Assembly (NCBI RefSeq): GCF_014268805.2
Contig: NZ_JABWRF020000002.1
Coordinates: 1,308,001-1,372,000, forward strand
DNA from: Pseudomonas farsensis
GTDB lineage: Bacteria > Pseudomonadota > Gammaproteobacteria > Pseudomonadales > Pseudomonadaceae
DNA length: 64,000 bases
Direction of reading: 5' to 3'
Positions within the stretch are counted from its first letter, which is position 1, and each line of letters begins with the position of its first letter. Under the pieces are notes generated by a model. That model was not told the DNA's origin, did no database searches, and worked only from the letters and a program-made list of their open reading frames with translations. This document shows, in pieces, positions 46,231 through 61,891 of this stretch. A program made the position numbers and the translations under genes.

Positions 46231-46257
46231 ATTTGGTGGGCCGGGGTAATTTGAATT
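46231..46257. other. Left border of the ssrA island: diverged copy of the ssrA 3' end
   Basis: ATTTGGTGGGCCGGGGTAAT and the following TTTGAATT match the start of the ssrA 3' end at 61866-61891 in the same orientation, with one gap and a few substitutions (about 22 of 26). Immediately to the left, ACGC-TCTTGG-GCGT followed by T residues (minus strand) looks like a terminator, as expected behind a tmRNA gene. The 428-bp gap 45915-46343 holds only this and the arm-type repeats. Confidence 0.6.
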
Positions 46258-46343: not shown

Positions 46344-46847
46344 CTAGTCATGCAGCGATCTATCGGGATAGCTAGTCTGCACATCGCGGTTAGCACCTGC
46401 TACGGTAGGCAGAGAGGGCCACGAGATATATTGCAGATTACAGTTCGTCACAGCCTCCAGAAGCCATTTCAATTCAGCTTCCGGCTTGCGGATTCCGCAC
46501 TCCCAGAGCTCAAAAACGCGCCAACCTTGCTTGAGCAGTTCGTTCCTGTTCTTCATGTCTCTCTTCACGTTTTGCTCGAATTTCAAGCGCCAGAAATCTT
46601 CGCGAGAGCTGGGGGTGGTCGCGTATTTGCAATCGGGATGCCTGTGCCAGAAACAGCCGTGAATGAAAATGCAGACGCGGTATCGGGGCAACACTACGTC
46701 GGGACGGCCCGTTAGCTTTCGTGGATGCAGGCGGAATCTGAAGCCGTTTCTGTGGAGCAGCTTCCTGACCTTCATCTCCGGAGCAGTATTGCTACTGCGA
46801 ATGCTGGCCATCATGCGCGACCTGACGTCTTTACTGACGTTATCCAT
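46344..46847 (-). CDS. vsr: Very short patch repair endonuclease (Vsr)
   Basis: A 167-residue mismatch nicking enzyme that repairs T:G mismatches produced by deamination of 5-methylcytosine. Family signatures are clear: SKDVRSRMMASIRSSNTAPE at the N-terminus, catalytic Asp50 in GRPDVVLPRYRVCIFIHGCFWHRHPDCKYA (FHGCFWHxHxC zinc/active-site region), and RVFELWECGIRKPE at the end. It is divergent from the methyltransferase gene, the usual company for Vsr. Codon use is more A/T-rich than in core genes. Confidence 0.93.
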   Translation of the reverse strand: MDNVSKDVRSRMMASIRSSNTAPEMKVRKLLHRNGFRFRLHPRKLTGRPDVVLPRYRVCIFIHGCFWHRHPDCKYATTPSSREDFWRLKFEQNVKRDMKNRNELLKQGWRVFELWECGIRKPEAELKWLLEAVTNCNLQYISWPSLPTVAGANRDVQTSYPDRSLHD

Positions 46848-47127
46848 CGACTTTTCCCTCAGATGCAGCTGACCCCGATTAGGCTTACGACGTGGCGTTC
46901 CGTAATTTTATACAAATCCTTGCCCTACGCCGTCTCTAGGGCATTGGGAGTGCTTTCGGTGTGCCAAGCGATGGGCTCGGCGTGAAATTGTGTTTTCACC
47001 TTCGCAGGTGATCTAGTGATCGTACATGCGGCATCAAGCTGGATGTAGCTGCACTACTGCCCCATTCCTGGTACAGTAGCTCGGCTCTGCTACCTACGCT
47101 GTTGCCTTCTTGATATCTAGACCTTCG

Positions 47128-48795
47128 ATGCCCATGATTGAATACCAGAACTCCCTGTTCCCGCCGGCCACTACCGCCAAGCCAGCTATCGCGGTCGAGG
47201 ATGCTATCCAGGTCGTAGACCTATTCGCTGGCCCTGGCGGGTTGGGCGAGGGCTTTTCATCCTCCGGCAAAGGCAAACATTTCGATATCATCGTCTCTGC
47301 TGAAATGGATCCTGTTGCCAGGAAGACGTTAAAACTCCGTGCTTACTACCGATTGCTGAAGCGCGAATACCCTGACGGGTTAATGGACTACTATCGGTAC
47401 TGTAATGGAGAAACAGATGAACCTAGCAGCAGCCCCGAGACCGCAGTGTTCTGGAAGCGTGCCGAACAGGAAGCACGGCAGATAACCTTGGGGTCGGAGG
47501 AAGGCGATAAAGAGTTAAATGGTATCATTCAGGACAGGTTGAATAAGGTGGGGCGCCCATGGGTACTCATTGGGGGACCTCCATGCCAAGCATACTCGAT
47601 CGTTGGTAGAGCGAGAAACCAAGCCAAGCAAGACTATGTGGCGGAGAATGATCATCGGCATTTTCTTTATAAGGATTATCTACGTATAATTAAAGATTAT
47701 CGTCCGACTGTCTTTGTTATGGAGAATGTTAAAGGTATCTTATCGTCCAAAGTTGGAGGGAAAGGTATTTTTCGACAGATTTTGCAAGATCTAGTAGACC
47801 CAAGTAAGGCGTTAGACGGGGTAGATGGTGGTCAAAAATATAAAATTTGCTCACTGGTTTCTGAAGAGTCTTACGGTTTTTCAGACTGTATAGATAGCGT
47901 GAAGCCAAAGTCGTTTATTATTGAAGCTGAAAAGTACGGGATACCGCAGGCCCGCCACCGCGTGATCCTTCTTGGGGTGGCTCTAGATGAGAGTGGTAAA
48001 GTTCCCGGGCATGACCTTTTGGAGAGATCTAATCCTGTATCGGTCCGGGAGGCTATAGGAGGACTTCCTAAGCTGAGAAGCAAGTTATCGCGGCGCGCGG
48101 ATTGTCAAGCAGAATGGTATCGGACTGTTGCCGATGAGGTAGATGATTTATTACGCTGCGCTCAACTTGAGAGTGGCGAAATGATTGGCCCTCTTCAAGA
48201 TACTCGGCGAGCGCTATTCGAAGGACCGCGTAGTTCTGGCGCTGAACGGGTGCCAAAGGAGAAGGGGCAGGGGCTTACTGGGATATCATCACTGGATGCT
48301 TGGTATAACGATCCAGAAATCAAGTACTGGATTAGTCATGATGCCCGAAGCCATATGCGGTCGGACCTGCGACGATATGTTTTTGCTAGTACCTTTGCCG
48401 CGCGGAATAAAACCTCCCCTAAGGGGCATGAGCAGTTCTCACTTCCTGGTCTTGCGCCCGCCCACAAGAATTGGGAAAGCGGTAAGTTTAGCGATCGCTT
48501 TCGAGTGCAGCTTGCAGAATATCCAGCTACGACTATTACTAGCCATATTTCGAAGGATGGGCACTATTTCATCCATTACGACCCTGCGCAATGTCGTAGC
48601 CTAACTGTTCGCGAGGCTGCGCGACTTCAGACATTCCCGGATAACTACTATTTTGAAGGGAACCGAACTCAGCAGTACCATCAGGTGGGTAATGCGGTAC
48701 CGCCTCTGCTGGCTAACAAGATTGCGAAAATTGTCTACGACGTTGTTTGTCGAAGAATTTCTGAACGTCAAAAAAATGGTTCGGATGAGTTGTAA
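47128..48795 (+). CDS. DNA (cytosine-5-)-methyltransferase
   Basis: A 555-residue C5 methyltransferase. Motif I is VVDLFAGPGGLGEGF, motif IV GGPPCQAYS with nucleophile Cys153, motif VI MENVKGIL, motif VIII QARHRVILLGV, and motif X GNAVPPLLANKIA close to the C-terminus. The long spacer between motifs VIII and X carries the target-recognition region. ATG 47128 is taken as the start; a TTG at 47110 and ATG at 47134 are alternatives, none with a strong site. It is divergent from vsr (280 bp) and convergent with the AIPR gene. It is the modification half of the system. Confidence 0.94.
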   Translation: MPMIEYQNSLFPPATTAKPAIAVEDAIQVVDLFAGPGGLGEGFSSSGKGKHFDIIVSAEMDPVARKTLKLRAYYRLLKREYPDGLMDYYRYCNGETDEPSSSPETAVFWKRAEQEARQITLGSEEGDKELNGIIQDRLNKVGRPWVLIGGPPCQAYSIVGRARNQAKQDYVAENDHRHFLYKDYLRIIKDYRPTVFVMENVKGILSSKVGGKGIFRQILQDLVDPSKALDGVDGGQKYKICSLVSEESYGFSDCIDSVKPKSFIIEAEKYGIPQARHRVILLGVALDESGKVPGHDLLERSNPVSVREAIGGLPKLRSKLSRRADCQAEWYRTVADEVDDLLRCAQLESGEMIGPLQDTRRALFEGPRSSGAERVPKEKGQGLTGISSLDAWYNDPEIKYWISHDARSHMRSDLRRYVFASTFAARNKTSPKGHEQFSLPGLAPAHKNWESGKFSDRFRVQLAEYPATTITSHISKDGHYFIHYDPAQCRSLTVREAARLQTFPDNYYFEGNRTQQYHQVGNAVPPLLANKIAKIVYDVVCRRISERQKNGSDEL

Positions 48796-48983
48796 GTATG
48801 AGATGAGGATCGTCCACTTGTCGAGCAGAGCTATACGGCGCCGCTATTTGGTTGTCGCCAAGGCCCCCTAACTCCGTGAATTGTGAGCTTGTAGCAGAGC
48901 ATTGCTGGATGATTGTTGTAACCGATTTTAATGACTGCTCAAGCTCGAACTTCATTTTAGAAGGATATGTTATTTAATCGGTC

Positions 48984-51059
48984 TTACATATCCTCCACTG
49001 GCATTCCTTCCTCTGCCATCCTCTTTATAAGCAGCTTGACTGCATTCTTATCTGGCCTTGCTAGGTTTAGGTTTCCCGATCCGATTTTCCGAAGGGCCTG
49101 GTCAGCCTTTGGCGACAGGAATCTATGCTGTTCGGCGGTCCGACGAATGATCTCGGCCTTAGGGGCGAGTGAGTGCAAAAGTATTTCGAAGTCGATTTCA
49201 CTGTCAATCCTTGCAGACGATTTCGCTTCCTTTTTTTCTTGCGTAATATCACCTATATCAAGCGTCAAATGCTTAGGGATAGGCGGTATTTTAAATTCTT
49301 GTGTGCTGATGTTTTGCCAGCAAGCTTCAAGTTTGCAGTACTCCCCGACGTTGCGAACATTTGCCGGAGCATTTCTGATGGCGTCAGCGATTAGTGGAGT
49401 AAGAGATGTTATGATTTCCTGGAGTTCTTCCGGGACGGATTGTATGCTCCAGATTGCCCCCCAATTTAGGTTAGCCTTTGTTTGGTGATAAATTTTTTCG
49501 GCAATCCAAGAGAGTGTATAAGCAATTGTCTGTGATTTATATCCGCGATCATCCTTATACCATTCGGAGCTAGCAATGTGCTTGTCGGTCCAGCGGAATA
49601 CCAGCCCCATTGCACAAGTGTTCCTATACCAAAGCTCGTTGAATTGGGTGGGCGACGACTTCCACGTTTTCGCGATTTGATCAGCAAATGCCATGAACGC
49701 TTTCTGCGCGCCTCTGGATACAATGTACGGCTTCCTTTCGAAGCTGAGAAAGTATTTGGCAAGCTCGGTTTTTTCGATAAGCTTGTCCTTAGGGAACTCC
49801 AGCAGAAATTTTTTCTTTTCGGCCACGGACGCGTACGCCGTGCCGTCACGGTACTGCCCGCGGGCGCGCTCATAGAACCACTTTTCACCCGTCATTGCAC
49901 CGTTTTGAGGCGGAGCAGTTATCGTCCGGGAGTGACGTTCCATTTGGAGATGGAACGGATGGCTCGAGAAGAAGTCCGCCTCTGAGATTCGATTCTGGGT
50001 GTTGGCGTAACGCGAAATTTTCGGGACTACCTGCTCGATTCTTGCAGATGGAACTACTGATAGTTTCATTTGTACGTAGACGCGATCAAGCGGTGAGTCT
50101 GCAACATCCTTTGCATACAGAATAGATGCTGTTGTTTGACCACCATTCACAATCTGAAGGTTATGGATGGCCGCAATCCCTAGCTGTCCGTCTTCGAGTA
50201 CCTCAAGCTTAACCGCAGATGCGGTCGCGGTTAGCCCGTTGTTGTATGCGAAGAACATGTCGGGCGTCTTTTTGATTGTTTCCAAGATGCCCTTGTTTAC
50301 CTTGGTCTTGGCTTGGAGATAGGTCCGAACGTTCTGCTCGAGTAATCTTGCACCGTATAGGCCATAGACCTCGGCAAGCACGGGCCCCGGGATAGCAAGG
50401 AGGAAGGATTGATGCTCTTCGGTATTTGTTGAAGCCTTGAGGCACGCGATTGGCCCTCCAGCTATCTCGGCGATATTGACTTCGATAGATTCAGGCGAGT
50501 GGAAGCTTTTTTGAATTTCGAAGTAGCGAACTGCATCAAGTACGCTGTAAACAATAGGTACTCCGCCTATTTGCTCGCCAAGTTGTGGCGGTCGTTTAGT
50601 TGCCAAGCGGGCGTTGGAGAAAAGAATGATTCGCACTCTCTTGATGAGGTCGCGTGCTGAATATATGGGGTAGGCTGCAGCAAACGCTGGGCTTGTTTCT
50701 TCAATAGAATTGATGAAAGTCGATGAGCAGGCATTTTCGAAGAAGGCGGAGGCATGCTTGAACGCTGAGGTTAGGCGGTCATTGTTTATTGATTCAAGTT
50801 TCGTTCCGTCGCGGTAATCGCAGATAGCAAGATAAAGCGTTCCACGATCGACATCAAATCCATAGCCGTCGATTCGGTAAGGGCGCCGTCCTCCTTCCTT
50901 GTGACTGTGCGTGTATTCCAAGTCTATGGTGTCACCGTTATCTGACGCCGTTGCGGCATATAGCTCGAAAAAAGCTTCTTGCTGAAATATGCCGCGTGCC
51001 TCCGCTTCTAAAAGTATATCTTCTCGGAGTGCTTCGAATGCTTGCTGCAACCCACTCAT
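48984..51059 (-). CDS. AIPR family anti-phage protein
   Basis: A 691-residue protein of the AIPR (abortive infection phage resistance) family. The diagnostic core is FFAYNNGLTATASAVKL followed by IHNLQIVNGGQTTASILYA and VYVQMKLSVVP, at about residues 270-330. There is no signal or membrane segment. It is last in the four-gene minus-strand operon and its ATG overlaps the PD-(D/E)XK stop by 4 bp. The molecular activity of AIPR proteins is not established; the operon context links it to the restriction machinery. Confidence 0.88.
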   Translation of the reverse strand: MSGLQQAFEALREDILLEAEARGIFQQEAFFELYAATASDNGDTIDLEYTHSHKEGGRRPYRIDGYGFDVDRGTLYLAICDYRDGTKLESINNDRLTSAFKHASAFFENACSSTFINSIEETSPAFAAAYPIYSARDLIKRVRIILFSNARLATKRPPQLGEQIGGVPIVYSVLDAVRYFEIQKSFHSPESIEVNIAEIAGGPIACLKASTNTEEHQSFLLAIPGPVLAEVYGLYGARLLEQNVRTYLQAKTKVNKGILETIKKTPDMFFAYNNGLTATASAVKLEVLEDGQLGIAAIHNLQIVNGGQTTASILYAKDVADSPLDRVYVQMKLSVVPSARIEQVVPKISRYANTQNRISEADFFSSHPFHLQMERHSRTITAPPQNGAMTGEKWFYERARGQYRDGTAYASVAEKKKFLLEFPKDKLIEKTELAKYFLSFERKPYIVSRGAQKAFMAFADQIAKTWKSSPTQFNELWYRNTCAMGLVFRWTDKHIASSEWYKDDRGYKSQTIAYTLSWIAEKIYHQTKANLNWGAIWSIQSVPEELQEIITSLTPLIADAIRNAPANVRNVGEYCKLEACWQNISTQEFKIPPIPKHLTLDIGDITQEKKEAKSSARIDSEIDFEILLHSLAPKAEIIRRTAEQHRFLSPKADQALRKIGSGNLNLARPDKNAVKLLIKRMAEEGMPVEDM

Positions 51060-52039
51060 GCTTCTATTCCCTCGAAGGCATCATCACAGCTGACGATGAA
51101 GGGAGAGCAGTCGCTCACACGAATGCTGTAGTTAACCATCTCGACGCCGGTGCGGAGATCACTGCGTTCGATACGAGGAAAGTCATTGGACACCTCGTAG
51201 AAAATTCGATCAACGAGAACCCAGCTCTCTTCACCATATTCCGGCATCTCTTGATATCCTGCTTCCAGTAAAGCGATCTCGAAGCATTCCAAAGCATTTG
51301 CACTTGTCCCGGAAATAGCGTCTCGTATCTCTGATACAAGAGCATTGAGAGTCCGCGCCGATGTTGCGACGGATGGAGTTGGGGCTATGCCTTGGTTGCA
51401 AATCAGGATCCGCCCCTGAACTGCGTCCAGTTGATCTTCGGAGGAAATTCGAATTCGTCGGTCGGCGGTTACTACCTGCGTCTTTACCTCAAATATGGAG
51501 CCGGCTACCACAAAATCTTGCTCATGACCGCCAGGACCATTCCAGCATTTGATAGCAGCGTTCCAACCAACGCGGTCACTAAGAACATCCCGCAGAAAAA
51601 GCAGTTCGCCTATCAAACCAATCCGTTCACTTTTTGAAAGTAAACGGCCGGCCCGATGGCTAAGCATCTCCTGCCAGCGATGAACCTCTTTGATTGCTTG
51701 TAGGAGCCCTTTCCCGGACTGCGTCGGTGCAAACCGTTCGGTTGCAAGCATGAGGCTCTTGCACATAAGCGCGAAATTTCTGAAATCGGCAGCATTACTT
51801 AGGCTCAGTACTAATCGTGAGCATCCGGGGGCTACTGAATGCATCTCGCAGGTCACTGCTGACATCCTTGGCAGGCTAGGCATTCCATGCAATACGCAAT
51901 CGCCATCCAGCTGAAATACAAAATACCCGTTGAAGTCACGGCCTATTCTGAAATCGAGCGGATGGCTGCTGTCAGCAAGTCGAATGTTGTAGCAACCTGG
52001 ATCTGTTGGCAGGGCGATAGACTTCCATTCATCAAGCAT
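51056..52039 (-). CDS. PD-(D/E)XK motif protein (DUF4420-type nuclease)
   Basis: A 327-residue predicted restriction nuclease. LIGELLFLRDVLS is the family's GEL-like segment, followed by a PD-(D/E)XK-type active site: an acidic residue in EQDFVV, then FEVKTQ with Glu184 and Lys186. The start is at 52039 (MLDEWKSIALP), overlapping the Z1 gene's stop by 8 bp; the longer frame upstream lies inside Z1. This is the best candidate for the DNA-cutting subunit of the system. Confidence 0.85.
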   Translation of the reverse strand: MLDEWKSIALPTDPGCYNIRLADSSHPLDFRIGRDFNGYFVFQLDGDCVLHGMPSLPRMSAVTCEMHSVAPGCSRLVLSLSNAADFRNFALMCKSLMLATERFAPTQSGKGLLQAIKEVHRWQEMLSHRAGRLLSKSERIGLIGELLFLRDVLSDRVGWNAAIKCWNGPGGHEQDFVVAGSIFEVKTQVVTADRRIRISSEDQLDAVQGRILICNQGIAPTPSVATSARTLNALVSEIRDAISGTSANALECFEIALLEAGYQEMPEYGEESWVLVDRIFYEVSNDFPRIERSDLRTGVEMVNYSIRVSDCSPFIVSCDDAFEGIEA

Positions 52040-54728
52040 CCTGGGCCTCCACCATCGCCTCGGCGTCATCATCTTCCTCAGCGGCAAAGCTCTCAAGTTG
52101 CTGTCGATAGACAGCATTTATTTGGTAGGTTCTCTCCTTTGCGGGTTTATTAGTCTCGGGCATGCAGAAGGAAAGGGTTACGATGTGATGTTCATGTTTG
52201 AGAACCTCTTTTGGATCGGCTTGATCATCTCGATCGTTCCGCAGCTTCGCATTGAAGATGTGCACCAGCATCATCGGCCGCTCGCGCACGGAGCATGCGG
52301 CGCGTTCCTTCTTGTACGTTCCAGCTTGGTGGGCAGCATCTGCCTTCGCTTTTTGTAGATCGTTTAGTCCGATCTGAGCATCTCCAGGATCAGCAACGCG
52401 GTTTTTGTTACCATATACTCGATAGGTACCCTTTTGTACTGTCCCTTGATCCCGAGACCTTAAGTTCACATTATGACCAGCAAATGAAATGGATTCGCCC
52501 GATTGGCGCATGGGAAGTACTACATCCCATTTATCGAGTTCATCCGTGACACGGTCCTTGACGTAATCCCCGAAGAGAGATGTATCGGAAATCACCGAGA
52601 GATCGGGATGGTCTACGAACTGAAATTGGCGCATAAGATTTAGTACGTCGCGTCCTCCCGCAGCCCAGCGAATGAAGCCTTTCTGTATTTCTGCAGGGGT
52701 TCCGAGTGCAATGAGAAATTGCTCTACTGCACTGCTATGCGTATTTCCAATAGCAGGATCATTTGGAAGCGCGAAACCCTCGATGTGACGTGCCGAATAG
52801 TCTTGGGCGATTTTAAGCTTCTCCGCCGTCCGCATCTTGTTTGCCGCAGTGACCCTGATAGCGAGCGGGCTTTGCCGGACTTTGAGGCCGAAATCACGCG
52901 GTGTGCGGTGCGCGGCCTTCATGCGTTTGATCTCGCTTCTTAGTTCTTCTGTAGCTTCGTCTACATACTCGTAGTGGTCGAAGGACACCTGAGGAAGATA
53001 GAGTCGGCAATACTCTTCGTAGCCCGGTCGATAGCCGAACCAGCGCGCCATTTGCATAAGTGTATCGCTTGCAGTAGTATTCCGCAGTAGATAGGAGACC
53101 GTCAGACCTTCTAGCGTCAGACCACGTGAAAGCGCTAATCCGCCGATGGCTATTATATGGAGACCATCTGATTTATGTCGCGAGTAGTCCAGTTTACCGC
53201 CCCGCATATTGACGGTTAGGACTTTGATGGGCTGGACACCTTCATTGAGTACTTCAAGCAGGTCGCACCAATTCAGTCCAGAGCTACTGAACTCGATTTC
53301 GAAGCTACGTTCGAGATCATCCATGATGTCATCATTGATTTCATCCAGCGGCAGCGATGCATGTACCGAGATCGCGTCTTGGATCTCCGTAACATATTCG
53401 TAAACAAGTCCGAGGATCTTTTCTTGGATGGCGTTGAAACGACTGACGTTGATCATCATCGTACAGTGGGCTTTGCCCTTGTCTTGCAATACCCTTATGG
53501 CCCTTGTTATGCAAAAAACACGGATCGCGTGACGCAAGCTTGCCGGCATGTCGGAAACATTGTCTCCGCTTTTGTGCTTCAGCGGTAGTAGAGTTCGATA
53601 GTCGTCAATGATCTTGACCATGTTAGAGCGTAAGTTTCCGCCCTCACGGAAAACTCGATGTGAACCTACATAGTTAGTTGGTGGATCAAGCGCCTTGATG
53701 AAGTTTCCGGGGAAGAGGTCATCCGTCTCCATTTCCTCTGTCGTTTCTGGGTCGATGAAAATGTTGGCGAACGGTGTAGCGGTATAGCCGACATATGCAG
53801 AGCGAGGAAAGCGCGAGAGAATTTGTCGGATGATGCCGTTGATGGCAGTGGTCCGCTTGGGGTCAGAGGCGGTGTTAATAGACGCGTTGTCGGCTTCGTC
53901 GTCGATCAGCAGAAGTGGTAGGTCATAGCCACCGGTCTCTCCCTGTGTTTCAATCCATTGTGCGAGACGTTCAAGGATGGATTTGTTCTTTTTGGTAATA
54001 AAGATCATCGGCTCTTGATGACCTGCCAGGCCGAAATAAATGCCGTCTGCACCACTCGAAAAATCGGCTACCCGCGTTGTTCCATAGGAAGGAATTCTTC
54101 GCGCCGTTGCATAAGTCTGGATTGGCAATGACTGCTGAGCAGCCGCGCCAAACATCGAGATTTTGCCGATGAATGTTTCATCAATCCTTTCCTGCGTCTG
54201 GGCGCGCAGCGAGTTGGTTATCCCTGCAAGTAGAATAATTACACGATAGCCCGCATCGGCTGCTTTGCAGATCAGAGCAGAATAGTTGGTGGTTTTACCC
54301 GACTGGACGTTACCCATGACCATGCCGCGAACTGCACCGTAGAACTCGTCTTTTGGATCGCCGCACTGGTCCAGAATTTCATCAGTATCCGAGTGTAGGG
54401 TCGCCAGCACGGGCGAAGGAAGTGTCCCCGTCTCGAGGTAGTATTTCCGTAGGCGATTCCAATAGTAGAAATCAAGCTCCGGGCGCTTGGCATCTAGCCA
54501 AGGCCGGTGGCCTTTTGTAATAACCGCCCCTCGCTTCTGGGTAACTGTAAAGCTAGCTTCCAGTTCGCGGATAATCGCAATGATTGCTGGCTCGTCAAGA
54601 CGCTGAAACGGCCCGTCGCGAACTATAGAAGGGATCGTACCTTCAGGTAAGCCTTGTCCTTGAGCAATATCGTCACCATATTGCTCTTCGATTTTCGAGC
54701 GGAAAAACGCAAGTTCGCTTTTAAACAT
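52032..54728 (-). CDS. Z1 domain superfamily II helicase-like ATPase
   Basis: An 898-residue Z1-domain protein. Walker A is GNVQSGKTTNYSALICKAAD, Walker B LLIDDEADNASIN, and motif III-like VGYTATPFANIFID. The Z1-specific block is IGGLALSRGLTLEGLTVSYLLRNTTASDTLMQMARWFGYRPGY, with the arginine finger-like residues. It most likely translocates on or remodels DNA. Its ATG abuts the GHKL gene's stop (TAAATG), and its 3' end overlaps the nuclease gene, implying fixed stoichiometry. Confidence 0.93.
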   Translation of the reverse strand: MFKSELAFFRSKIEEQYGDDIAQGQGLPEGTIPSIVRDGPFQRLDEPAIIAIIRELEASFTVTQKRGAVITKGHRPWLDAKRPELDFYYWNRLRKYYLETGTLPSPVLATLHSDTDEILDQCGDPKDEFYGAVRGMVMGNVQSGKTTNYSALICKAADAGYRVIILLAGITNSLRAQTQERIDETFIGKISMFGAAAQQSLPIQTYATARRIPSYGTTRVADFSSGADGIYFGLAGHQEPMIFITKKNKSILERLAQWIETQGETGGYDLPLLLIDDEADNASINTASDPKRTTAINGIIRQILSRFPRSAYVGYTATPFANIFIDPETTEEMETDDLFPGNFIKALDPPTNYVGSHRVFREGGNLRSNMVKIIDDYRTLLPLKHKSGDNVSDMPASLRHAIRVFCITRAIRVLQDKGKAHCTMMINVSRFNAIQEKILGLVYEYVTEIQDAISVHASLPLDEINDDIMDDLERSFEIEFSSSGLNWCDLLEVLNEGVQPIKVLTVNMRGGKLDYSRHKSDGLHIIAIGGLALSRGLTLEGLTVSYLLRNTTASDTLMQMARWFGYRPGYEEYCRLYLPQVSFDHYEYVDEATEELRSEIKRMKAAHRTPRDFGLKVRQSPLAIRVTAANKMRTAEKLKIAQDYSARHIEGFALPNDPAIGNTHSSAVEQFLIALGTPAEIQKGFIRWAAGGRDVLNLMRQFQFVDHPDLSVISDTSLFGDYVKDRVTDELDKWDVVLPMRQSGESISFAGHNVNLRSRDQGTVQKGTYRVYGNKNRVADPGDAQIGLNDLQKAKADAAHQAGTYKKERAACSVRERPMMLVHIFNAKLRNDRDDQADPKEVLKHEHHIVTLSFCMPETNKPAKERTYQINAVYRQQLESFAAEEDDDAEAMVEAQDA

Positions 54729-56195
54729 TTACCACCACCCTTTGTCCTTGAGGTGTTTTACGACGAGGTCGGCCTGACTCGCCCACGGTTCAGTTGAAGC
54801 AAGAAGCTCACGCAGTGCTTTCATGTCCCCGCCTGAATGAAGCAGCAGTGAAGGGAGCGCCGTGTCGAGCTTTTCGAGAAATCTGTCTCTGTCTACAAAA
54901 CCTTGATTCATCATTTCTGGACGAGAAGAATAGTCCTCGCCGATGCTTACAATAGGGAAGCAATCTTCAATGATTCCGAGTGCTGCTGCGAAGGCTTTGG
55001 CTCTATCTCTATCTTTGTCCTCTAGCATCCCTGTAATTAGGGGGTGCTCGCGGTTGATATAGTAGCGAACTTCACCGTTCCGCACGTACTTCGCCCAGAC
55101 CGACGTTTTTCCAGCTTTTTCTTGGATCCGCCCGCCTCTGGACTGAAATACCTTTCCAGATCTACTTTTGAGCCGGCCGACGATGTCCTTCAAGCGGTTT
55201 TTAAGCCCTGAGGGTAGCTGCGCGTCTGCCTTATCGAGAGTGATTTTCCATATCGCATCTAGCGTGTTGGGGATGTTGATAGCGACCCTGACAAGTTGTG
55301 ATAGCTCGCCGTGCCTTACCAGTCTAAACCACGTCCCATGTATGATGAGGCGGTGCTGTCTATAAACATAGAAGCCTTGATTTCGAACGAAACCTTCCTC
55401 ACCGCCGAGCTGATCGTGCTCGCCCGCAGTCAATTTCGAATAGTGCGGTAGGATGAAGGCCTGCACTCCGATTGGCTGTCCATTAAAGTTAAGGATCTCC
55501 CTCGGCTGGGCCTGCGTTGCATCATGGTCGCGGAAAAAGGGATCTCTCGGCTTCAGTGGGATACCATTAAAACTGATTTTGAGTTTCCGAAGGCCTTCCT
55601 CGCCTCCTAAGTAGCGATGGAAAATGAGTGACAGCTTCTTTTGAGCGTGTGCGACTAGATCGTTAAAACCCTTGCCAGCAACTTGTCCATACTCGGAAAG
55701 GCGATCGCACATTCTCCAAATGATCTCTGTCCCGTTGCGCTCAAGGAGCCGCTGATCGGCCTGGGCTTCAATCTCATCTGGCTCAAGAACTCCCATCTTC
55801 CAGTTTTCGATGTCATCCAGATTCCACGATGCGCCGGAAAGTGCTCCATCCTGACTCGTGACTACGGTCAAATGCCGGCATTGTGACAGTGATGCCGACT
55901 TCATGCCCCACCCGAAGCGTCCGAGGTCATCAGGAGCTCGCTCTTCATTGGGATTGGTGCTGGCAGGTCTCATTGCCCGATGAAGTTCGGCCGATGTCAT
56001 TCCGGATCCGTCGTCTAAAATCCTGACCTCGGGCCCATCATCCTTCCGGATGCATTTGATGTCGATGTTCTGGGCTCTCGCCTTGATGCTGTTATCTAGC
56101 AGATCTGCAAGAGCACTTGACAGGTCGTAATTCCCGAAGCTACGCGCTGAGGTCATCAGCGCGGACGCATCAGGAGGATTATTTACATGCCTCAT
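54729..56195 (-). CDS. GHKL ATPase (MORC/MutL-like) of the restriction operon
   Basis: A 488-residue protein with an N-terminal HATPase_c-type fold. The N-box is SALADLLDNSIKA with Asn35, followed by VRILDDGSGMTSAELHRAM and the lid GRFGWGMKSASLSQC. A second domain of S5 type follows from about 210, then a charged C-terminal part. The layout matches MORC/MutL-type GHKL ATPases, which dimerise on ATP binding and clamp DNA. Start 56195 is set by GGGGA five bases upstream. It is first in the operon and probably the sensor/clamp subunit. Confidence 0.9.
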   Translation of the reverse strand: MRHVNNPPDASALMTSARSFGNYDLSSALADLLDNSIKARAQNIDIKCIRKDDGPEVRILDDGSGMTSAELHRAMRPASTNPNEERAPDDLGRFGWGMKSASLSQCRHLTVVTSQDGALSGASWNLDDIENWKMGVLEPDEIEAQADQRLLERNGTEIIWRMCDRLSEYGQVAGKGFNDLVAHAQKKLSLIFHRYLGGEEGLRKLKISFNGIPLKPRDPFFRDHDATQAQPREILNFNGQPIGVQAFILPHYSKLTAGEHDQLGGEEGFVRNQGFYVYRQHRLIIHGTWFRLVRHGELSQLVRVAINIPNTLDAIWKITLDKADAQLPSGLKNRLKDIVGRLKSRSGKVFQSRGGRIQEKAGKTSVWAKYVRNGEVRYYINREHPLITGMLEDKDRDRAKAFAAALGIIEDCFPIVSIGEDYSSRPEMMNQGFVDRDRFLEKLDTALPSLLLHSGGDMKALRELLASTEPWASQADLVVKHLKDKGWW

Positions 56196-56438: not shown

Positions 56439-56765
56439 CTACAGGCGCTGTAGGATAGCCTCACTTTCGAGGAAAAATATGACCTCATTGCCTCGAAGCA
56501 GCTTCACGTCGCGATCTAATCTTTTCCAGATCAATAGGCTGGTTAGGCGATAGTAGTAACGGGTGGCATTGGAGTGGTCTTTCAAGTACTCGGTGAGAAA
56601 CCAGCGGACATGCTTGAGCTGCCAAGTCCACGGATTGTCTCGCTGCCATCGATGTTGAATGGCCGCTTGCATGGTTCGTGCTTGGCGCAGGTGTCGTTTC
56701 TGAGTCGAGCTCGAGCCAGTCAGTACGCCGCTTAGGAACAAGGCCATGTCAAATGGCTTACTCAT
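56439..56765 (-). CDS. Small hypothetical protein coupled to a recombinase
   Basis: A 108-residue basic protein, rich in Arg, Trp and Tyr (HRWQRDNPWTWQLKHVRWFLTEYLKDHSNATRYYYRL), with no recognised family. Its ATG overlaps the stop of the recombinase gene by 4 bp, so it is translated with it. A DNA-binding accessory role in recombination is possible but not shown. Confidence 0.65.
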   Translation of the reverse strand: MSKPFDMALFLSGVLTGSSSTQKRHLRQARTMQAAIQHRWQRDNPWTWQLKHVRWFLTEYLKDHSNATRYYYRLTSLLIWKRLDRDVKLLRGNEVIFFLESEAILQRL

Positions 56766-57742
56766 GTTCGTCCACCGATGTAGGCCGAGACTACATCAAC
56801 TCGGTTGTGTCCGAGCTCAAGGCTGATTTGCCGGCGTGCCTGGCGATCAAGTCCACGGTCGACTCTATAGCATAGGCCGCCGTAGATTGGCGCTGCCTGG
56901 CCGGTGAGATGTTCGTAACGGTCGCAGGCGTAAGCTGCACGTAATTCATGGAAGCCTTTGAGTCCATGTTCATGCAACACTTCGCGAGCAGGTAGCACAG
57001 TCTGTTGCATGAATGCGGCATAGGTTTCATCTTGGGCCAGCAGGTTGCGGCTGCCGACCGGCGATGCTGCACGCGCTAACTGGAGCGCCGCTTTAACTTG
57101 CTCAGTGGCTATGATCCAGCGCGGTGCTGATGCCCCTGATCGGCCGCCTTTTGTGCCATCCTGGATGTTGATACGGCCCAACTGTTTGGATTCGCGGTGC
57201 AAGCGCGGCAGGTCCGCTAGGATCGCTTCGCGTAGGCGCATACCGGTAGTCCGGGCCAGCATGACAATCGCGGCCACCCGCTCGTACTGCTGACCAATCA
57301 GCGCATGCACCACTCGCTGCACTTGTTGACGGTCTTGGCCGTCCGGTACACGTATGCGCACGTTAGAGCGCTGCAGCCCCAACGTCTGGCTCGGGCTGAT
57401 GATTCTCACTTCCTGATCACCGCGCAGCGCAGCGAGGGTACGGTTGACGCTGCTCAGGCGGTTTTGCGCGGTAGCGATGCGCAGATTGCCTTGTTGGATC
57501 TGATGACGCAGGTATGTGGCGTAGTCTTGGAGCGTCTGTCGATCAATCTGGCGTGCATCGTTGTAACCGGGGCCGTCCTCCGATCGGCACCAACGCACGA
57601 AGGCTTGCCAGCGATCGCTGTGTGCTTTGACGGTGGCGAAGTGGCCGCCGGCAAACAGATCTTTCAGGGCCTGCCGACCGGCGTAGCTCAGTTGGCGACC
57701 GTAGCCAAAATTGCGACCATCACGCCGACCGACCAGCGCCAT
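56762..57742 (-). CDS. Tyrosine recombinase, integrase-domain protein (Integrase_1 type)
   Basis: A 326-residue phage-type recombinase with an N-terminal SAM-like core-binding domain (TVKAHSDRWQAFVRWCRSEDG ... ATYLRHQI) and a catalytic domain. The first catalytic Arg is in ARTTGMRLREAILADLPR, a Lys in IQDGTKGGRSG, and His/Arg in GFHELRAAYACDRYEH. The final Tyr is in LGHNRVDVVSAYIGG. Start MALVGRRDG at 57742 follows AAGGTGAAG; the open frame further upstream overlaps the next gene. It is a second recombinase of the island, distinct from the ssrA integrase. Confidence 0.87.
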   Translation of the reverse strand: MALVGRRDGRNFGYGRQLSYAGRQALKDLFAGGHFATVKAHSDRWQAFVRWCRSEDGPGYNDARQIDRQTLQDYATYLRHQIQQGNLRIATAQNRLSSVNRTLAALRGDQEVRIISPSQTLGLQRSNVRIRVPDGQDRQQVQRVVHALIGQQYERVAAIVMLARTTGMRLREAILADLPRLHRESKQLGRINIQDGTKGGRSGASAPRWIIATEQVKAALQLARAASPVGSRNLLAQDETYAAFMQQTVLPAREVLHEHGLKGFHELRAAYACDRYEHLTGQAAPIYGGLCYRVDRGLDRQARRQISLELGHNRVDVVSAYIGGRT

Positions 57743-58079
57743 TGTCTTCACCTTGATCGTTGGCTTGTAGGAGCAGCAGCAGGGCTTTCCAGTGCGGGCC
57801 GATGGTGTCCAACTGTCCCCAGTGTGCTGGGCGGATGAGGAGGGCATTTTCGCTGCGTTGCAGCAGAGCCCCTTCTTCTTGCAACTGCTCGATAAGCCGA
57901 GCGAGGTTGATTGACTCAGATGTTGGAGCGGCGACAGCGGCGACACTGGCGACAACCCCCGCCGCATCTGGATTGGCACGTGGCGACAGAGTGGTGGCAG
58001 TGGCGGCGACACTTCGTAACTCGGTCGGCGAGCGATGTTGCGCTCTATAGCGGCGCACGGCGTCATTGAGCCGGAACAT
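57720..58079 (-). CDS. Small hypothetical protein of the integrative element
   Basis: A 119-residue protein: a basic N-terminus (MFRLNDAVRRYRAQHRSP), an Ala/Val-rich middle encoded by GTCGCC repeats, and a helical C-terminus (LARLIEQLQEEGALLQRSENALLIRPAHWGQLDTIGPHWKALL). Start 58079 follows GAGGTG; it overlaps the DUF3987 stop by 17 bp and the recombinase start by 23 bp. Unknown function, but part of the DUF3987-recombinase unit. Confidence 0.65.
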   Translation of the reverse strand: MFRLNDAVRRYRAQHRSPTELRSVAATATTLSPRANPDAAGVVASVAAVAAPTSESINLARLIEQLQEEGALLQRSENALLIRPAHWGQLDTIGPHWKALLLLLQANDQGEDNGAGRSA

Positions 58080-59460
58080 GGCGCACCTCGAATATGTCCC
58101 CGTCATTGTTCAGCCAGTTATGGGCAACCAGTTGCAGCAATAACTCGAAGGTGTGCCGCGTGCTTTTACGGGCAAAGCGAGGGCCGTTGCGTGTGATATC
58201 GCGGAGGCGAAACGGTGGCCAGTTCTTCTTTATCAACCAGCGCAGCAGGCAATCGGCCTCTGCGCGAAGCTTATTCAGCGGTTCTTGTTCAGTCAGTCGT
58301 TGGTTCTCGGCCAGGTAGTAGTCCATCAGCGTAGAGGCGCGCTGAATGTGCATGTCTTCCAATACAGTCGATTCCTCAACCACCGCCATCACACCAGCCA
58401 TGCGTAGTACGTTCGCGGCGGCTTTGCTCGCTGCAGCTTGGACGTTGACCAGTTCGCCGAACTCCCCTGACTCGCATTCAATGGTGTCGTGAATGGCAAT
58501 CCATGCTTCACGGGCGCGTGGGCTCAACTCTATGACCGCAGGTGTGAGGCCACCATCTGTATGCCGTGACCAAGGCTTCTGCATCAGCGCGGCAATGCGC
58601 TGCTGGTACAGGTGCACCTTTGGATCTCGGGTCAGATCGATGGGTTTGTACAGCCGTTGTCCAACCAGACGCTCGGGCCAACTGACCAGGCAGCGCCCCA
58701 GGATGCCCTGGTCTTTGATATCTGCGTCCTGAAGCAAGCGGTCTGCCAGGCGGGGTTGAAGCATCAAGTGCATGCTGAGCCGGCGATCATAGGCACGCAG
58801 ACTTTCTCCAGTCATCGCGCGCGACCGATCAATCGGGCTACCGTCCCACAGCGTCGACAAGTGAGTGATCGCCTTGATCATGTTGTCCTTGCTCATGGTG
58901 CTGCCGCCCAAAAACTGCCCGCCCTCATCGCTGAACAGCCCCATGCTGGGCAAGCCGTGACACAGGCTTTTGACAAGGCCCTCAATGGTCGGCTCAGCAG
59001 TGAGCAGTCTTGGTTGGACGGGTTCAGGTTGGGCGTCCAGCGCTAGCTGTGCTGACTTTTTCGAGGTTGGCGATCTCGCGGTGAGGCTCATTGCAGCTCG
59101 GTGCGCCTTGAGTTGTTCGCCATAAGCGATCCACTGCTGTCTTTCCCAATCGCGTACGGCCTGCAGCGCAATATGGTCCACCGCGCTTTTGCGATCACCC
59201 GAGCAAGCCACCGTCAGCAAGTACAGCGACAACGGATAAATTCGGCCGTCGAGGTGAACATTGGCGTGCGCCTGGCTCGCCAAAGCTGCCGTGGCTAGAA
59301 CAGATTGCGCGGCCATGGCGCAGGGCACGCCGATCACATCGGACATGCGTTCCACCGCAGGCCCTAATAGATCGCCCAGCGCCGCGACCGGGTAGGGTAG
59401 GGGCGTAATCTGCTGTTCCAACAAGGGGCGTGGTGGCCCTTGTACTTCGCGCAGTTGCAT
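58063..59460 (-). CDS. DUF3987 domain-containing protein (YfjI-like)
   Basis: A 465-residue protein of the DUF3987/YfjI family, usually found in integrative elements and thought to be replication-related with a P-loop-like core. Diagnostic are FPLPYPVAALGDLLGPAVERMSDVIGVPCAMAAQSVLATAALASQAHANV at the start, VACSGDRKSAVDHIAL (a degenerate nucleotide-binding loop) and GLFSDEGGQFLGGSTMSKDNMIKAITHLSTLWDG. GGAGG precedes the ATG. It is first of four minus-strand genes ending at 56439. Confidence 0.85.
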   Translation of the reverse strand: MQLREVQGPPRPLLEQQITPLPYPVAALGDLLGPAVERMSDVIGVPCAMAAQSVLATAALASQAHANVHLDGRIYPLSLYLLTVACSGDRKSAVDHIALQAVRDWERQQWIAYGEQLKAHRAAMSLTARSPTSKKSAQLALDAQPEPVQPRLLTAEPTIEGLVKSLCHGLPSMGLFSDEGGQFLGGSTMSKDNMIKAITHLSTLWDGSPIDRSRAMTGESLRAYDRRLSMHLMLQPRLADRLLQDADIKDQGILGRCLVSWPERLVGQRLYKPIDLTRDPKVHLYQQRIAALMQKPWSRHTDGGLTPAVIELSPRAREAWIAIHDTIECESGEFGELVNVQAAASKAAANVLRMAGVMAVVEESTVLEDMHIQRASTLMDYYLAENQRLTEQEPLNKLRAEADCLLRWLIKKNWPPFRLRDITRNGPRFARKSTRHTFELLLQLVAHNWLNNDGDIFEVRHVPAQ

Positions 59461-60424: not shown

Positions 60425-61681
60425 CTATCGGATGGGTACTACGTTTCGATCCCTAGCCGCATTCATCGCGCTGGCCGAGAGATTGCCCGTCGACGCCTTC
60501 AGAATGTACTCGCTCCACCAAGCCATCATCGGCCGCCGTCGCTCGATGTAGTCGGCTCGGTTGTAGGCACTGCGCACCTCATCCTTGTCGACGTGCGCCA
60601 ACGCCACTTCGATGAGCTCCGGGTCCCACCCATATTCATTCAAGATGGTGCTGGCCATCGAGCGCATGCCGTGGCTGACCAAGCGGTCCTGGAAGCCCAT
60701 GCGTTTCAATGCCATGTTGGCGGTCTGGCTATTGGCATGAGTACGAGGGTTTCGGTCTGCGGGGAAGACGTATTCCCGATGACCACTGTGGGACTTCAGT
60801 ATCTCCAGCAATGACATGGCTTGATCGCTCAACGGGATGCTGTGCGGGCGGCGCTTCTTCATCCGCTCCGGCGGGATGGTCCAGACACGCCTTTCAAAGT
60901 CGATGTCTACCCAGCGAGTAGTTGCCGCCTCAGCGGGGCGAGTCATGGTGTGCAACTGCCACTCGATCAGGCAGCGGGTCGTGCGCTTGATACTGGCATT
61001 CGCTATTTCCAGCATGAGCTCAGGAAGCTCCTCGGGTGATAGTGCCGCCATGTTTTCTTTCTTCGGTTTCTTGAATACCGCCCGAATCCCGCTTAGGGGG
61101 TTCGCGAAAATCATTCCCGAATTGACCCCATAGGTCATGATCTCGTTGAGGCGCTGGCTAAGCCGCTTCACGGTTTCCAAGCTGCCTTTGGCTTCGATGG
61201 GACGAAGAATTTTTATCACCATCGGTGCGCTGACTTCCGAGATCGGAGTCGATTTCATGCTCGGGAAAATGTGCAGCGTGAGTGAGCGCCAGATGTCCTC
61301 GGCATAAGCCGGCGTGACCGAGTCCTTTTTCAGCTCGAACCAGGAGGTAGCTACTTTCTCGAACGTATGTTCCGTCTCGGCTAGCTTGGCCTGCGCGAGA
61401 TCATTGCGCTGAGCTTTTGGGTCGATCCCCTGCGCAAGTACTTCCCTAGCCTCAACCGCTTTCCGCCGAGCTTGCGCTAGAGAGACTTCGGGATAGGAGC
61501 CGAGCGCCATGTTGATTCGATTTTTGGTGACCGGATGCCTGTAGTTGAAATTCCATTGCATCGAGCGATTGACCCGGACGCGGAGCTGGAGGCCGTCGCC
61601 ATCCGTGATGACATAGTCCTTGTCTTTGGGCTTGACTGCCTTGAGCTGGCGGTCGGAGAGACGAGCTGTTTGAGCGCACAT
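60425..61681 (-). CDS. P4-type tyrosine integrase (ssrA-specific)
   Basis: A 418-residue integrase with the P4/CP4-57 arrangement: DUF4102 N-terminal domain (TARLSDRQLKAVKPKDKDYVITDGDGLQLRVR) and core-binding domain. The catalytic Arg is in LHTMTRPAEAATTRW; His-x-x-Arg is in VSHGMRSMASTILNE. The second His and catalytic Tyr lie in VALAHVDKDEVRSAYNRADYIERR. Start 61681 follows AGGGAG. Its 5' end lies about 190 bp from the ssrA 3' end, as expected for an integrase that uses ssrA as attB. Confidence 0.93.
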   Translation of the reverse strand: MCAQTARLSDRQLKAVKPKDKDYVITDGDGLQLRVRVNRSMQWNFNYRHPVTKNRINMALGSYPEVSLAQARRKAVEAREVLAQGIDPKAQRNDLAQAKLAETEHTFEKVATSWFELKKDSVTPAYAEDIWRSLTLHIFPSMKSTPISEVSAPMVIKILRPIEAKGSLETVKRLSQRLNEIMTYGVNSGMIFANPLSGIRAVFKKPKKENMAALSPEELPELMLEIANASIKRTTRCLIEWQLHTMTRPAEAATTRWVDIDFERRVWTIPPERMKKRRPHSIPLSDQAMSLLEILKSHSGHREYVFPADRNPRTHANSQTANMALKRMGFQDRLVSHGMRSMASTILNEYGWDPELIEVALAHVDKDEVRSAYNRADYIERRRPMMAWWSEYILKASTGNLSASAMNAARDRNVVPIR

Positions 61682-61705
61682 GGGATGAGCTCCCTGACAC
61701 CTTTT

Positions 61706-61755
61706 GGTATTCCCAAGATTAGCCCTAGGTAGGCGGGAATACCACCGGGAATACC
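61706..61755. other. Arm-type repeats beside the integrase
   Basis: GGAATACC at 61736-61743 and 61748-61755 (12 bp apart), with an inverted copy GGTATTCC at 61706-61713. The direct pair has exactly the spacing of the pair at 46311-46330. Confidence 0.6.
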
Positions 61756-61831
61756 CGAACGGTTGGAACTCAAAAACCCTCAAAAGACCACAAAAGCGCT
61801 GGAAGCCGCGTATTTACTGGGTCGGAGGCAC

Positions 61832-61865: not shown

Positions 61866-61891
61866 ATTTGGTGGAGCCGGGGGGATTTGAA
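61866..61891. other. Right attachment site at the ssrA 3' end
   Basis: ATTTGGTGGAGCCGGGGGGA and TTTGAA cover the CCA end, acceptor stem and part of the T-arm of ssrA. The related copy at 46231 defines the other border of a 15.6-kb segment. Confidence 0.65.

Follow-up and report, generated by a model that had tools for sequence, protein, structure and literature searches.

Genes and boundaries of an island at ssrA

In Pseudomonas farsensis an island of ~15.7 kb, located at ssrA, carries genes for a Vsr-family endonuclease, a C5 methyltransferase (MTase) and a tightly coupled four-gene operon. Throughout the text, "the window" is the whole stretch of 64,000 nt that was analysed, its locus is termed WIN in comparisons, and L-numbers denote loci or contigs of relatives. 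The island comprises the following features:

46231..46255 (+), left boundary of the island, a degenerate att-like repeat of the 3' end of ssrA that aligns to 61866-61891
46344..46847 (-), endonuclease of the Vsr family (167 aa) that presumably acts in repair alongside the MTase; Pfam Vsr 3.7e-28
47128..48795 (+), C5 cytosine DNA methyltransferase (555 aa); Pfam DNA_methylase 4.9e-46; best PADLOC model DrmMII 6.3e-90
48984..51059 (-), MzaE/AIPR (691 aa); Pfam AIPR 1.9e-92, AIPR_N 3.5e-31; PADLOC MzaE 1.8e-67
51056..52039 (-), MzaD/DUF4420 (327 aa), PD-(D/E)XK nuclease; Pfam 8.6e-57; PADLOC MzaD 2.3e-16
52032..54728 (-), MzaC (898 aa), Z1-containing SF2 helicase; Pfam Z1 1.6e-69; PADLOC MzaC 2.6e-120
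54729..56195 (-), MzaB, MORC-family GHKL ATPase (488 aa); Pfam HATPase_c_3 9.1e-32; PADLOC MzaB 6.2e-67
56762..58066 (-), the island's second integrase (Integrase_1 in Pfam)
58063..59460 (-), DUF3987 protein, island member; Pfam
60425..61783 (-), tyrosine integrase next to ssrA; has an arm-binding domain; Pfam Phage_integrase 1.2e-28
61869..62260 (-), ssrA (tmRNA), which bounds the island on the right and presumably was the target of its insertion

The alignment of the att-like copy to 61866-61891 scores 35, a value reached by none of 500 shuffles (highest 27), and the next best separate place scores 24. The P. ovata island (L002) has a longer att-like copy at the corresponding place (score 53).

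Profile searches, named as a check in the preliminary description of this DNA, matched all six proteins (Vsr, MTase and the four operon products) to the expected Pfam families, the best family of each scoring above curated cut-offs. The gene arrangement is as described there, i.e. the open reading frames of the four minus-strand genes follow each other with junctions of 0 bp (MzaB/MzaC), an 8-bp overlap (MzaC/MzaD) and a 4-bp overlap (MzaD/MzaE), which are identical in L002 and L003, and the MTase gene converges on the AIPR end of the operon, with Vsr at its other flank and divergent from it. Earlier in-frame starts are possible for MzaB (56219) and MzaD (52117), but relatives favour 56195 (L004, L005, L082) and 52039 (five close relatives), respectively; for the MTase, a TTG at 47110 is an alternative start. 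The motifs of all partners had been considered intact, which holds for DUF4420, MORC, Z1, MTase and Vsr but does not extend to AIPR, a family without an established active site. The MTase has GGPPCQ, MENV and ARHR as well as motifs IX and X, and Vsr, being 42% identical to E. coli Vsr over 122 aa, retains GRPD, GCFWH and WEC.

Proteins of the effector operon

In MzaB the key GHKL and S5 residues are invariant in 29/29 aligned rows. The MORC S5 motif (GhXhhpXXRhl) reads GFYVYRQHRLI at residues 274-284, with G274, Y276, Y278, R279, R282 and L283 invariant. Searched against PDB sequences, the GHKL part matched MORC4 and MORC2 (E 6e-5 to 3e-3); RecA fusion entries rank higher, but cover residues 388-437 only, with no significant stretch. 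MzaC contains GNVQSGKT (139), DDEAD (276) and DTLMQMARWFG (555), the last of which fits DThhQXuRhFG, and its comparison with PDB sequences gave three weak, apparently unrelated matches. In MzaD the E-D-ExK residues E145, D175, E184 and K186 are invariant in 32/32 aligned rows, and its AF2 model (pLDDT 91.3) has a C-terminal half resembling DpnI, SwaI, HincII and EcoRV (Z up to 7.3); the value of 7.3, obtained for residues 131-323 and DpnI, is near the stated noise level and speaks for the fold only.

The AF2 model of MzaE (pLDDT 84.8, pTM 0.52) suggests an architecture of a REase-like N-terminal domain that lacks a conserved active site, a ParB-like NGGQTT domain and a helical C-terminus. Residues 1-189 match AF1548 (Z 8.6, rmsd 3.6, 116 aligned), FokI (8.2), AspBHI (8.0) and MspJI (7.7), and residues 212-357 match ParB-N (6.1), BrxU (4.7) and SspE (4.5), all of them suggestive, near the stated noise level and indicating the fold only. 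No relative of MzaE was found among PDB sequences, and Foldseek gave zero matches to the PDB at E <= 0.001 for the MzaD and MzaE models. These data bear on the possibility that the complex senses phage and AIPR causes cell death, i.e. acts by abortive infection, which is in line with the family name and with the N-terminal HEPN toxin domain assigned to AIPR in the passage on this family in PMC3506569. The REase-type folds matched by the N-terminal domain (with scores near those which the tool designates as common) and the lack of conservation, across 30 rows, of the residues where a REase active site would lie argue against it, though both are compatible with an abortive role; that HEPN entries are absent from the structure matches listed for MzaE is by itself uninformative. 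Overall, we consider this mode of action very unlikely.

Linkage and exchange of the methyltransferase and Vsr genes

The preliminary description had taken absence of conserved co-occurrence as an argument against its proposal and had suggested a neighbourhood survey. In our sample of 76 loci with a Z1 gene a C5 MTase is present in 73 and Vsr in 65; among Bacillota, L007 alone was covered. Each of the three loci lacking a C5 MTase (L069, L081, L120) is truncated at one side by the end of its contig. As the host genome (5.25 Mb) contains only three C5 MTase genes and a single Vsr gene, the island's own, linkage of both to the Z1 gene is beyond chance. In most loci with MzaB-E no more than a few hundred bases separate the MTase gene from the operon. 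Among the 71 Z1 loci whose MTase is in the tree, 18 have further, distant C5 types, with Vsr alongside in 14 of these 18, and thus we rejected Vsr as a pointer to CCWGG, the site discussed below.

Although the genes recur together, they are not inherited as one private unit of five or six genes, which qualifies the interpretation in the preliminary description. Across 34 loci MzaB, C, D and E co-diverge (Pearson r 0.93-0.96), whereas r is 0.20-0.31 for MTase versus MzaB-E, 0.15-0.20 for Vsr versus MzaB-E and 0.65 for MTase versus Vsr. With the MTase data the AU test rejected a single clade of WIN, L002 and L004 (dlnL 319, p 1.3e-4) as well as L068+L093 (dlnL 679, p 1.0e-4), and with the MzaB-E data it rejected L004+L068 (dlnL 4048), which are sisters in the MTase tree (SH-aLRT 100). 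These comparisons, together with the Dcm-type loci described below, indicate that MTase and Vsr form a pair whose exchange is independent of the four effector genes.

MTases of only 23-43% identity adjoin effectors that are 84-93% (MzaC) and 72-87% (MzaD) identical. For WIN/L004, L002/L004 and L068/L093, which are pairs with swapped MTases, the MTase segment just before motif IX is 57-60% identical and the catalytic part 38-39%, as if specificity were retained while the remainder drifted. Segment 326-400, which could be part of the recognition domain, has 14-20% identity in swapped pairs. Recombinational swapping of the recognition domain was considered, but this segment drifts gradually (64-81% in pairs 84-89% identical overall), without jumps. 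In sliding identity profiles of nine pairs, none of the four effector proteins was seen to have a hypervariable block that follows the MTase.

These patterns are relevant to a classical type II-like restriction-modification (RM) system of private specificity, in which MzaD or the complex would have its own site, the MTase variants would be co-adapted and the site of the window would not be CCWGG. The nearly universal association with a C5 MTase, its proximity to the operon, the wholly different segment 326-400 of swapped pairs and the other C5 types in 18 loci would all suit such a system. Yet near-identical effectors stand beside highly diverged MTases, none of the four effector proteins has a block that drops to MTase-like divergence in such pairs, and the unrelated Dcm can stand in, so that we regard private specificity as unlikely.

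Homologues of Dcm (61-66% identical to E. coli Dcm) replace the usual MTase near the Z1 gene in L003, L047, L052, L054 and L101, with a partial one in L046, and on the Z1 tree the Dcm label must have changed four times or more. These substitutes are 23-25% identical to the window MTase over part of the length. In L003, effectors 77-86% identical to those of the window lie next to a complete EcoRII system, with Dcm 1.4 kb upstream on the opposite strand and another gene in between. L101 and L102 have Z1 proteins of 84% identity, yet L101 has Dcm and L102 a window-type MTase. In the six Dcm-type genomes no window-type MTase was found at E <= 1e-20 (positive control 8/8). Dcm occurs in 17 of 398 genomes of the host genus, five of which have a Z1 gene, always with Dcm within 10 kb of it (5/5); the difference between genomes with a Z1 gene (5/36) and others (12/362) is modest (Fisher p 0.013). 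As an EcoRII-C nuclease adjoins Dcm in five of the six Dcm-type loci, Dcm may be part of an adjacent RM system and not a stand-in for the usual MTase; only L052 has Dcm-Vsr without this nuclease in the DNA fetched.

It is also conceivable that MzaB-E acts independently of methylation and merely shares the island with MTase-Vsr as a selfish or independent cassette. The PADLOC Mza models seen are A to E and include no MTase, mzaABCDE is called validated in the relevant passage of PMC9523054, and the modules have separate histories. Set against this, the only Z1 loci lacking a C5 MTase are those cut by contig ends, and the six loci with a recognised Dcm are without the usual MTase type, which is not found elsewhere in these genomes either. 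Hence, we find methylation independence distinctly improbable.

Relation to known systems and a proposed mechanism

A system of this kind is already known, its genes forming a predicted anti-phage set. The window resembles MzaABCDE, reportedly from Gao et al. 2020, in having MzaB, C, D and E adjacent and in the order B-C-D-E (PADLOC), but the sigma factor MzaA is missing, a C5 MTase and Vsr being linked instead; the MzaA model has four matches in the genome, every one outside the window. The EcoRII and Dcm-Vsr systems stand where the usual MTase is otherwise found, beside close relatives of these effectors, but Dcm and the MTase of the window are only distant relatives, and the window gave no match to an EcoRII nuclease.

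The preliminary description had referred, correctly, to a prediction of such restriction operons by Iyer, Abhiman and Aravind (2008): the operons treated in the pertinent passages of PMC2292703 share with ours the MORC S5 motif, the DThhQXuRhFG helicase, the E-D-ExK nuclease, a DNA methylase, Vsr and AIPR, the last two already being listed as neighbours, and the window operon fits their third operon type, with no difference noticed in these passages. The combination had been termed biochemically uncharacterised, but it is less novel than stated, given PADLOC MzaB-E and the putative system of Miller 2022 (PMC9523054). According to the section describing it, this gene set is a putative 'type II' relative of MzaABCDE, ~20% identical to mzaBCDE, with Z1, PD-(D/E)XK, cytosine MTase and AIPR in association with MORC; the domain printed there as DUF4220 has the Pfam name DUF4420. 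Its 'putative transcriptional regulator' was not recognised in the window, and 'known DNA repair endonucleases', perhaps Vsr, are assigned to type I. MTase exchange and site are absent from that section, and we found no printed report of either in Z1/Mza systems, subscription papers being mostly outside the literature searched. What is new here is the comparison showing that methylase exchange is independent of the effector genes. CglI and NgoAVII are similar in that a Z1-containing SF2 protein works with a nuclease and an MTase and cleavage needs ATP hydrolysis, but their nuclease is a PLD-B3 protein, and in the portion of PMC4267653 devoted to them AIPR is unmentioned and MORC occurs only in a reference title.

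A further link leads to DISARM. The contigs L140, L142, L174 and L183, which contain DISARM genes (DrmA+DrmB), bear MTases of the window family. Those of L174 and L183 are 77-78% identical to the MTases of the Mza-type loci L004 and L068, whereas the window MTase has only 43-49% identity to the MTases of DISARM contigs. Among 34 IMG/VR contigs with window-type MTases, drawn from the best 80 of 155 MTase matches, the neighbourhood could be assigned for 17: 12 have MzaC, four have DrmA+DrmB and one (L168) has MzaD/MzaE at the contig end. The likeness to DISARM with DrmMII is thus one of MTase family, and the window differs in being without DrmA and DrmB, which are absent from the PADLOC models reported for ten island proteins and, by blastp at 1e-15, from the reading frames both of the window and of the 76 loci. 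DISARM methylates CCWGG, as stated in the passages on its modification in PMC5957327 and PMC12926258, and also stops phages without this motif (PMC5957327); therefore, the mark need not be the site that is cut.

The exchange of MTases beside a constant effector could also mean that the MTase serves the restricting complex as its specificity subunit, in the manner of type I or BREX systems, and that exchange re-targets the effector. However, the substitutes include the distant Dcm, which would then need to bind to the same effector, and the same MTase lineage serves in DISARM loci. Dcm substitution in particular disfavours a specificity subunit, which we deem hardly probable; the alternatives weighed here are not mutually exclusive.

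Based on our findings we favour, with a probability of about 0.6, a two-module anti-phage system of the restriction type on an ssrA-integrated island, with an exchangeable cassette for an m5C self-mark. This agrees, as far as sequence can support it, with the earlier proposal of a restriction-type set combining an m5C self-mark with a MORC/SF2/PD-(D/E)XK effector. Module 1 (MzaB-C-D-E) would be the attacker, in which incoming DNA is acted upon by the Z1 SF2 motor together with the MORC clamp and presumably cut by the PD-(D/E)XK nuclease MzaD, and AIPR, with its REase-like and ParB-like domains, probably is a sensor or nuclease-accessory subunit. Module 2 would provide the self-mark, the MTase placing m5C on host DNA and Vsr mending T:G mismatches left by m5C deamination. 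Methylation sensitivity of the attacker would arise from module 1 reading the mark alone and not the MTase protein; if so, any MTase making the same mark would suffice, and the cassette could be freely exchanged.

The mark would most likely be that of Dcm, EcoRII and DISARM, and we slightly favour CCWGG as the predicted site of the window MTase. The latter is 27% identical to E. coli Dcm over 270 aa of the catalytic part, with only a short C-terminal stretch in addition, i.e. homology is not carried through the recognition domain and places it outside the Dcm/EcoRII MTases; a specificity common to both is what we infer, not family membership. As 18 of 71 loci have distant C5 types, a single site need not hold across the whole Z1 family.

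More tentatively, and at somewhat below even odds, CCWGG methylation might be a common self-mark for mechanistically unrelated defences, namely Mza-type MORC-Z1-AIPR systems, much of the Z1 family, DISARM and EcoRII RM. Cassettes of Vsr and an MTase from either of two unrelated families would then circulate between these effectors as interchangeable immunity genes, one resident CCWGG methylase would license acquisition of any attacker, and attackers would sense the mark without the methylase protein, perhaps without cutting its site. Predicted defences of the Mza and Z1/MORC types are widespread, and, if true, a CCWGG self-mark with an interchangeable methylase would explain why attack modules of several genes can pass from host to host without lethal effect, and one epigenetic signal would link Mza, DISARM and EcoRII. 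E. coli K-12 carries dcm, and the mechanism would thus be testable there in dcm+ versus dcm- strains.

As a side observation with no bearing on the site of the MTase, CCWGG occurs 13 times in the operon, with 19.6 expected from base composition, and 303 times in positions 1-44000, with 168.4 expected.

The six-gene set and its island

The preliminary description had proposed a coupled four-gene operon converging on a methyltransferase with a Vsr gene, and all six gene positions it gave are correct. Within the operon, on the minus strand, neighbouring genes abut with 0 bp at the first junction and overlap by 8 bp and 4 bp at the other two; the C5 cytosine DNA methyltransferase (MTase) on the plus strand is convergent with this operon, and the Vsr gene lies beyond the MTase. 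The family assignments hold as well: Pfam profile searches return Vsr, DNA_methylase, AIPR with AIPR_N, DUF4420, Z1 and GHKL ATPase, all above the curated cut-offs. Among the PADLOC models, MzaE (AIPR), MzaD (DUF4420), MzaC (Z1 helicase), MzaB (MORC ATPase) and Vsr are matched, and the top model of the MTase is DrmMII, the C5 MTase of the defence system DISARM. Gene sets of this kind are already known as predictions (Iyer 2008; Mza; Miller 2022).

The cargo has a G+C content of 50.3% vs 64.4% for window bases 1-44000, and the island has the following edges:

61869-62260, minus strand: tmRNA gene (ssrA), one edge of the island
60425-61783, minus strand: tyrosine integrase beside the tmRNA gene, at the same edge
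46231-46255: degenerate copy of the ssrA 3' end, at the opposite edge, about 90 bases past the Vsr gene

The att-like copy at 46231-46255 scores 35, a value reached by 0 of 500 shuffles, the next best separate place scoring 24. The nearest relative of the operon is found in P. ovata (L002), with a second Pseudomonas locus (G165) showing the same identities. In P. ovata the counterpart of the island also sits at the tmRNA gene, and its repeat is longer than that of the window. When the two islands are compared, a pair consisting of a DUF3987 gene and a second integrase (56762-59460; L002:4373-7131) has the opposite orientation with respect to the remaining genes, a pattern that a nested or invertible element would show. 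A radC RNA motif (RF01754, 60002-60137, minus strand) lies in the island interior, with the DUF3987 gene on one side and the ssrA integrase on the other. Immediately beyond the island is a C4 antisense RNA (RF01695, 63530-63616, minus strand), immediately left of it a DUF1232 protein (45507-45914), and Rfam also matches 'Pseudomonas sRNA P24' in the window. Together with the P. ovata and G165 relatives, this match indicates a Pseudomonas host.

Conserved residues and modelled folds

The usual catalytic residue of GHKL ATPases is a Glu, found at the start of the N-box in MutL-type enzymes; in MzaB its place is taken by Asp31, invariant in 29 aligned rows. These rows show no variation in the ATP-site residues either, nor in the S5 motif that is specific to MORC proteins (Iyer 2008). 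MzaC contains the Walker A, DEAD and DThhQXuRhFG motifs. In MzaD, E145, D175, E184 and K186 are invariant across 32 rows. The model of this protein is confident (pLDDT 91.3), and its C-terminal half resembles type II restriction endonucleases (REases), i.e. DpnI (Z 7.3), SwaI (5.9), HincII (5.6) and EcoRV (5.6).

The AIPR model matches REase folds weakly in residues 1-189 (FokI, AspBHI, MspJI; Z 7.7-8.2) and ParB-N, BrxU and SspE weakly in residues 212-357 (Z 4.5-6.1). The place of a catalytic Asp in the first domain is occupied by D, S, N, T or H among relatives, and Q302, N305, G306, G307, Q308, T309 and T310 of the second domain are invariant in 30 rows. Based on these weak matches and the conservation, AIPR may be a sensor or accessory subunit. 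The modelled order, with a putative REase-type fold at the N terminus and a ParB/SspE/BrxU-like domain after it, would conflict with the HEPN assignment made for AIPR in PMC3506569.

Effectors and MTase-Vsr cassette as two modules

The simplest account, which we favour, is an attack module (BCDE, i.e. MzaB to MzaE) combined with an exchangeable MTase-Vsr cassette: the attack module would tolerate DNA carrying a common m5C mark, and making this mark would be the task of the cassette. A literature search lying mostly outside subscription journals found no printed account of cassette exchangeability, of substitution by Dcm/EcoRII or of MTase sharing with DISARM, all three of which are apparently new.

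A Z1 protein (E <= 1e-10) occurs in 36 of 398 genomes of the genus, the window's own included, and in 23 of 398 of the phylum. We collected 76 loci (6 from GTDB contigs, 1 plasmid, 69 stretches of sampled genomes). In the 77 loci including the window, with the near-copies L004, L005 and L082 counted separately and profiles built from a portion of the loci, Z1 is present in 76; of these, 73 have a C5 MTase, 65 Vsr and 47 full BCDE (45 of the 47 with MTase, 40 with MTase and Vsr). The three Z1 loci lacking an MTase (L069, L081, L120) each end on one side at a contig end, and Pfam confirms a C5 MTase in L072, L075 and L097, among the weakest matches. Plain tblastn with the window proteins found all six genes in 29 of the first 63 loci. 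Three plasmid records contain a window-type MTase (E <= 1e-60), all with Z1 nearby, as does a single record of the phage collection. The window-type MTase at L102:8032-9881, beside a Z1 locus, is broken across two frames, by decay or assembly error.

Pairwise identities over 34 BCDE loci, window included, separate the modules:

Correlation of pairwise identities (34 loci)
B, C, D, E among themselves: Pearson 0.93-0.96, Spearman 0.71-0.83
MTase vs BCDE: Pearson 0.20-0.31, Spearman 0.01-0.11
Vsr vs BCDE: Pearson 0.15-0.20, Spearman 0.02-0.16
MTase vs Vsr: Pearson 0.65, Spearman 0.44

The window and P. ovata have all six genes in common (82-92% identity). The Gemmobacter, Devosia and Shinella loci (L004, L005, L082) share 74-84% with the window in BCDE, but only 42% in the MTase and 43% in Vsr; likewise, L068 and L093 share 87-93% in BCDE, but 43% in MTase and Vsr. 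L004 pairs with L068 in the MTase tree and with the window group in the BCDE tree, and AU tests reject alternatives to these placements, the p values being descriptive because the groups were chosen after the identities were known. In such swapped pairs (WIN, the window locus, with L004; L002/L004; L068/L093), MTase residues 401-489, before motif IX, are 57-60% identical vs 38-39% for the catalytic part. Of the 47 BCDE loci, 23 have the MTase upstream and on the operon's strand, 15 have it downstream and convergent, 7 have other arrangements, and 2 lack it. The distance to the operon is mostly no more than a few hundred bases (exceptions L003, L072, L075, L093), and Vsr mostly adjoins or overlaps the MTase (exceptions L003, L093, L097). 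The six-gene sets of L004, L005 and L082 are 99-100% identical at the protein level, which implies that the set moved between alphaproteobacterial genera very recently; L005 has a stop close to the start of the Z1 frame.

Dcm, DISARM and the methylation site

Six Z1 loci have an MTase of a different type altogether, a Dcm homologue, whose identity to the E. coli enzyme is 61-65% in L003, L047, L052, L054 and L101 and 66% in the L046 genome, the L046 stretch containing just its end. A window-type MTase (E <= 1e-20) was found in 0 of these 6 genomes, several of them drafts, against 8 of 8 control genomes with an identical query. Mapped onto the Z1 tree, the Dcm label requires at least 4 changes, which parsimony does not sort into gains and losses. 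The effectors of Pseudomonas sp. KK4 (L003) share 77-86% identity with those of the window, and its Dcm is part of a complete EcoRII system (EcoRII-N and EcoRII-C domains) with Vsr. EcoRII-C relatives also occur in L046, L047, L054 and L101 (by Pfam for L047 and L101) and were not found in the fetched part of L052. Within the genus, 17 of 398 genomes have a Dcm homologue and 5 of the 17 also Z1, less than 10 kb away in all five; the difference in Dcm frequency between Z1 and other genomes is modest on its own (p 0.013).

The MTase lineage also reaches DISARM. An IMG/VR scan with the window-type family gave 78 loci from the best 80 of 155; from these best 80 of 155, 34 were taken at about 40% identity or more. 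Among the 17 of them that could be assigned, 12 have a Z1 gene, 4 have DrmA and DrmB, and 1 (L168) has MzaD/MzaE at a contig end. Four DISARM MTases are 43-49% identical to the window MTase overall and 59-60% in segment 401-489. Those of the DISARM contigs L174 and L183 reach 77-78% with Mza-type L004 and L068 (87-94% in the segment), and thus one MTase lineage adjoins two different attackers. Two reviews give CCWGG as the DISARM methylation site (PMC5957327, PMC12926258), the former stating that DISARM also blocks motif-free phages.

Against CCWGG as the site of the window MTase, Dcm is accompanied by its own nuclease in 5 of the 6 Dcm-type loci and may simply be a neighbour, and MTases of other C5 types are present in 18 of 71 Z1 loci. 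CCWGG is the site indicated by EcoRII, Dcm and DISARM alike, and we give it slightly better than even odds (about 0.55) for the window MTase.
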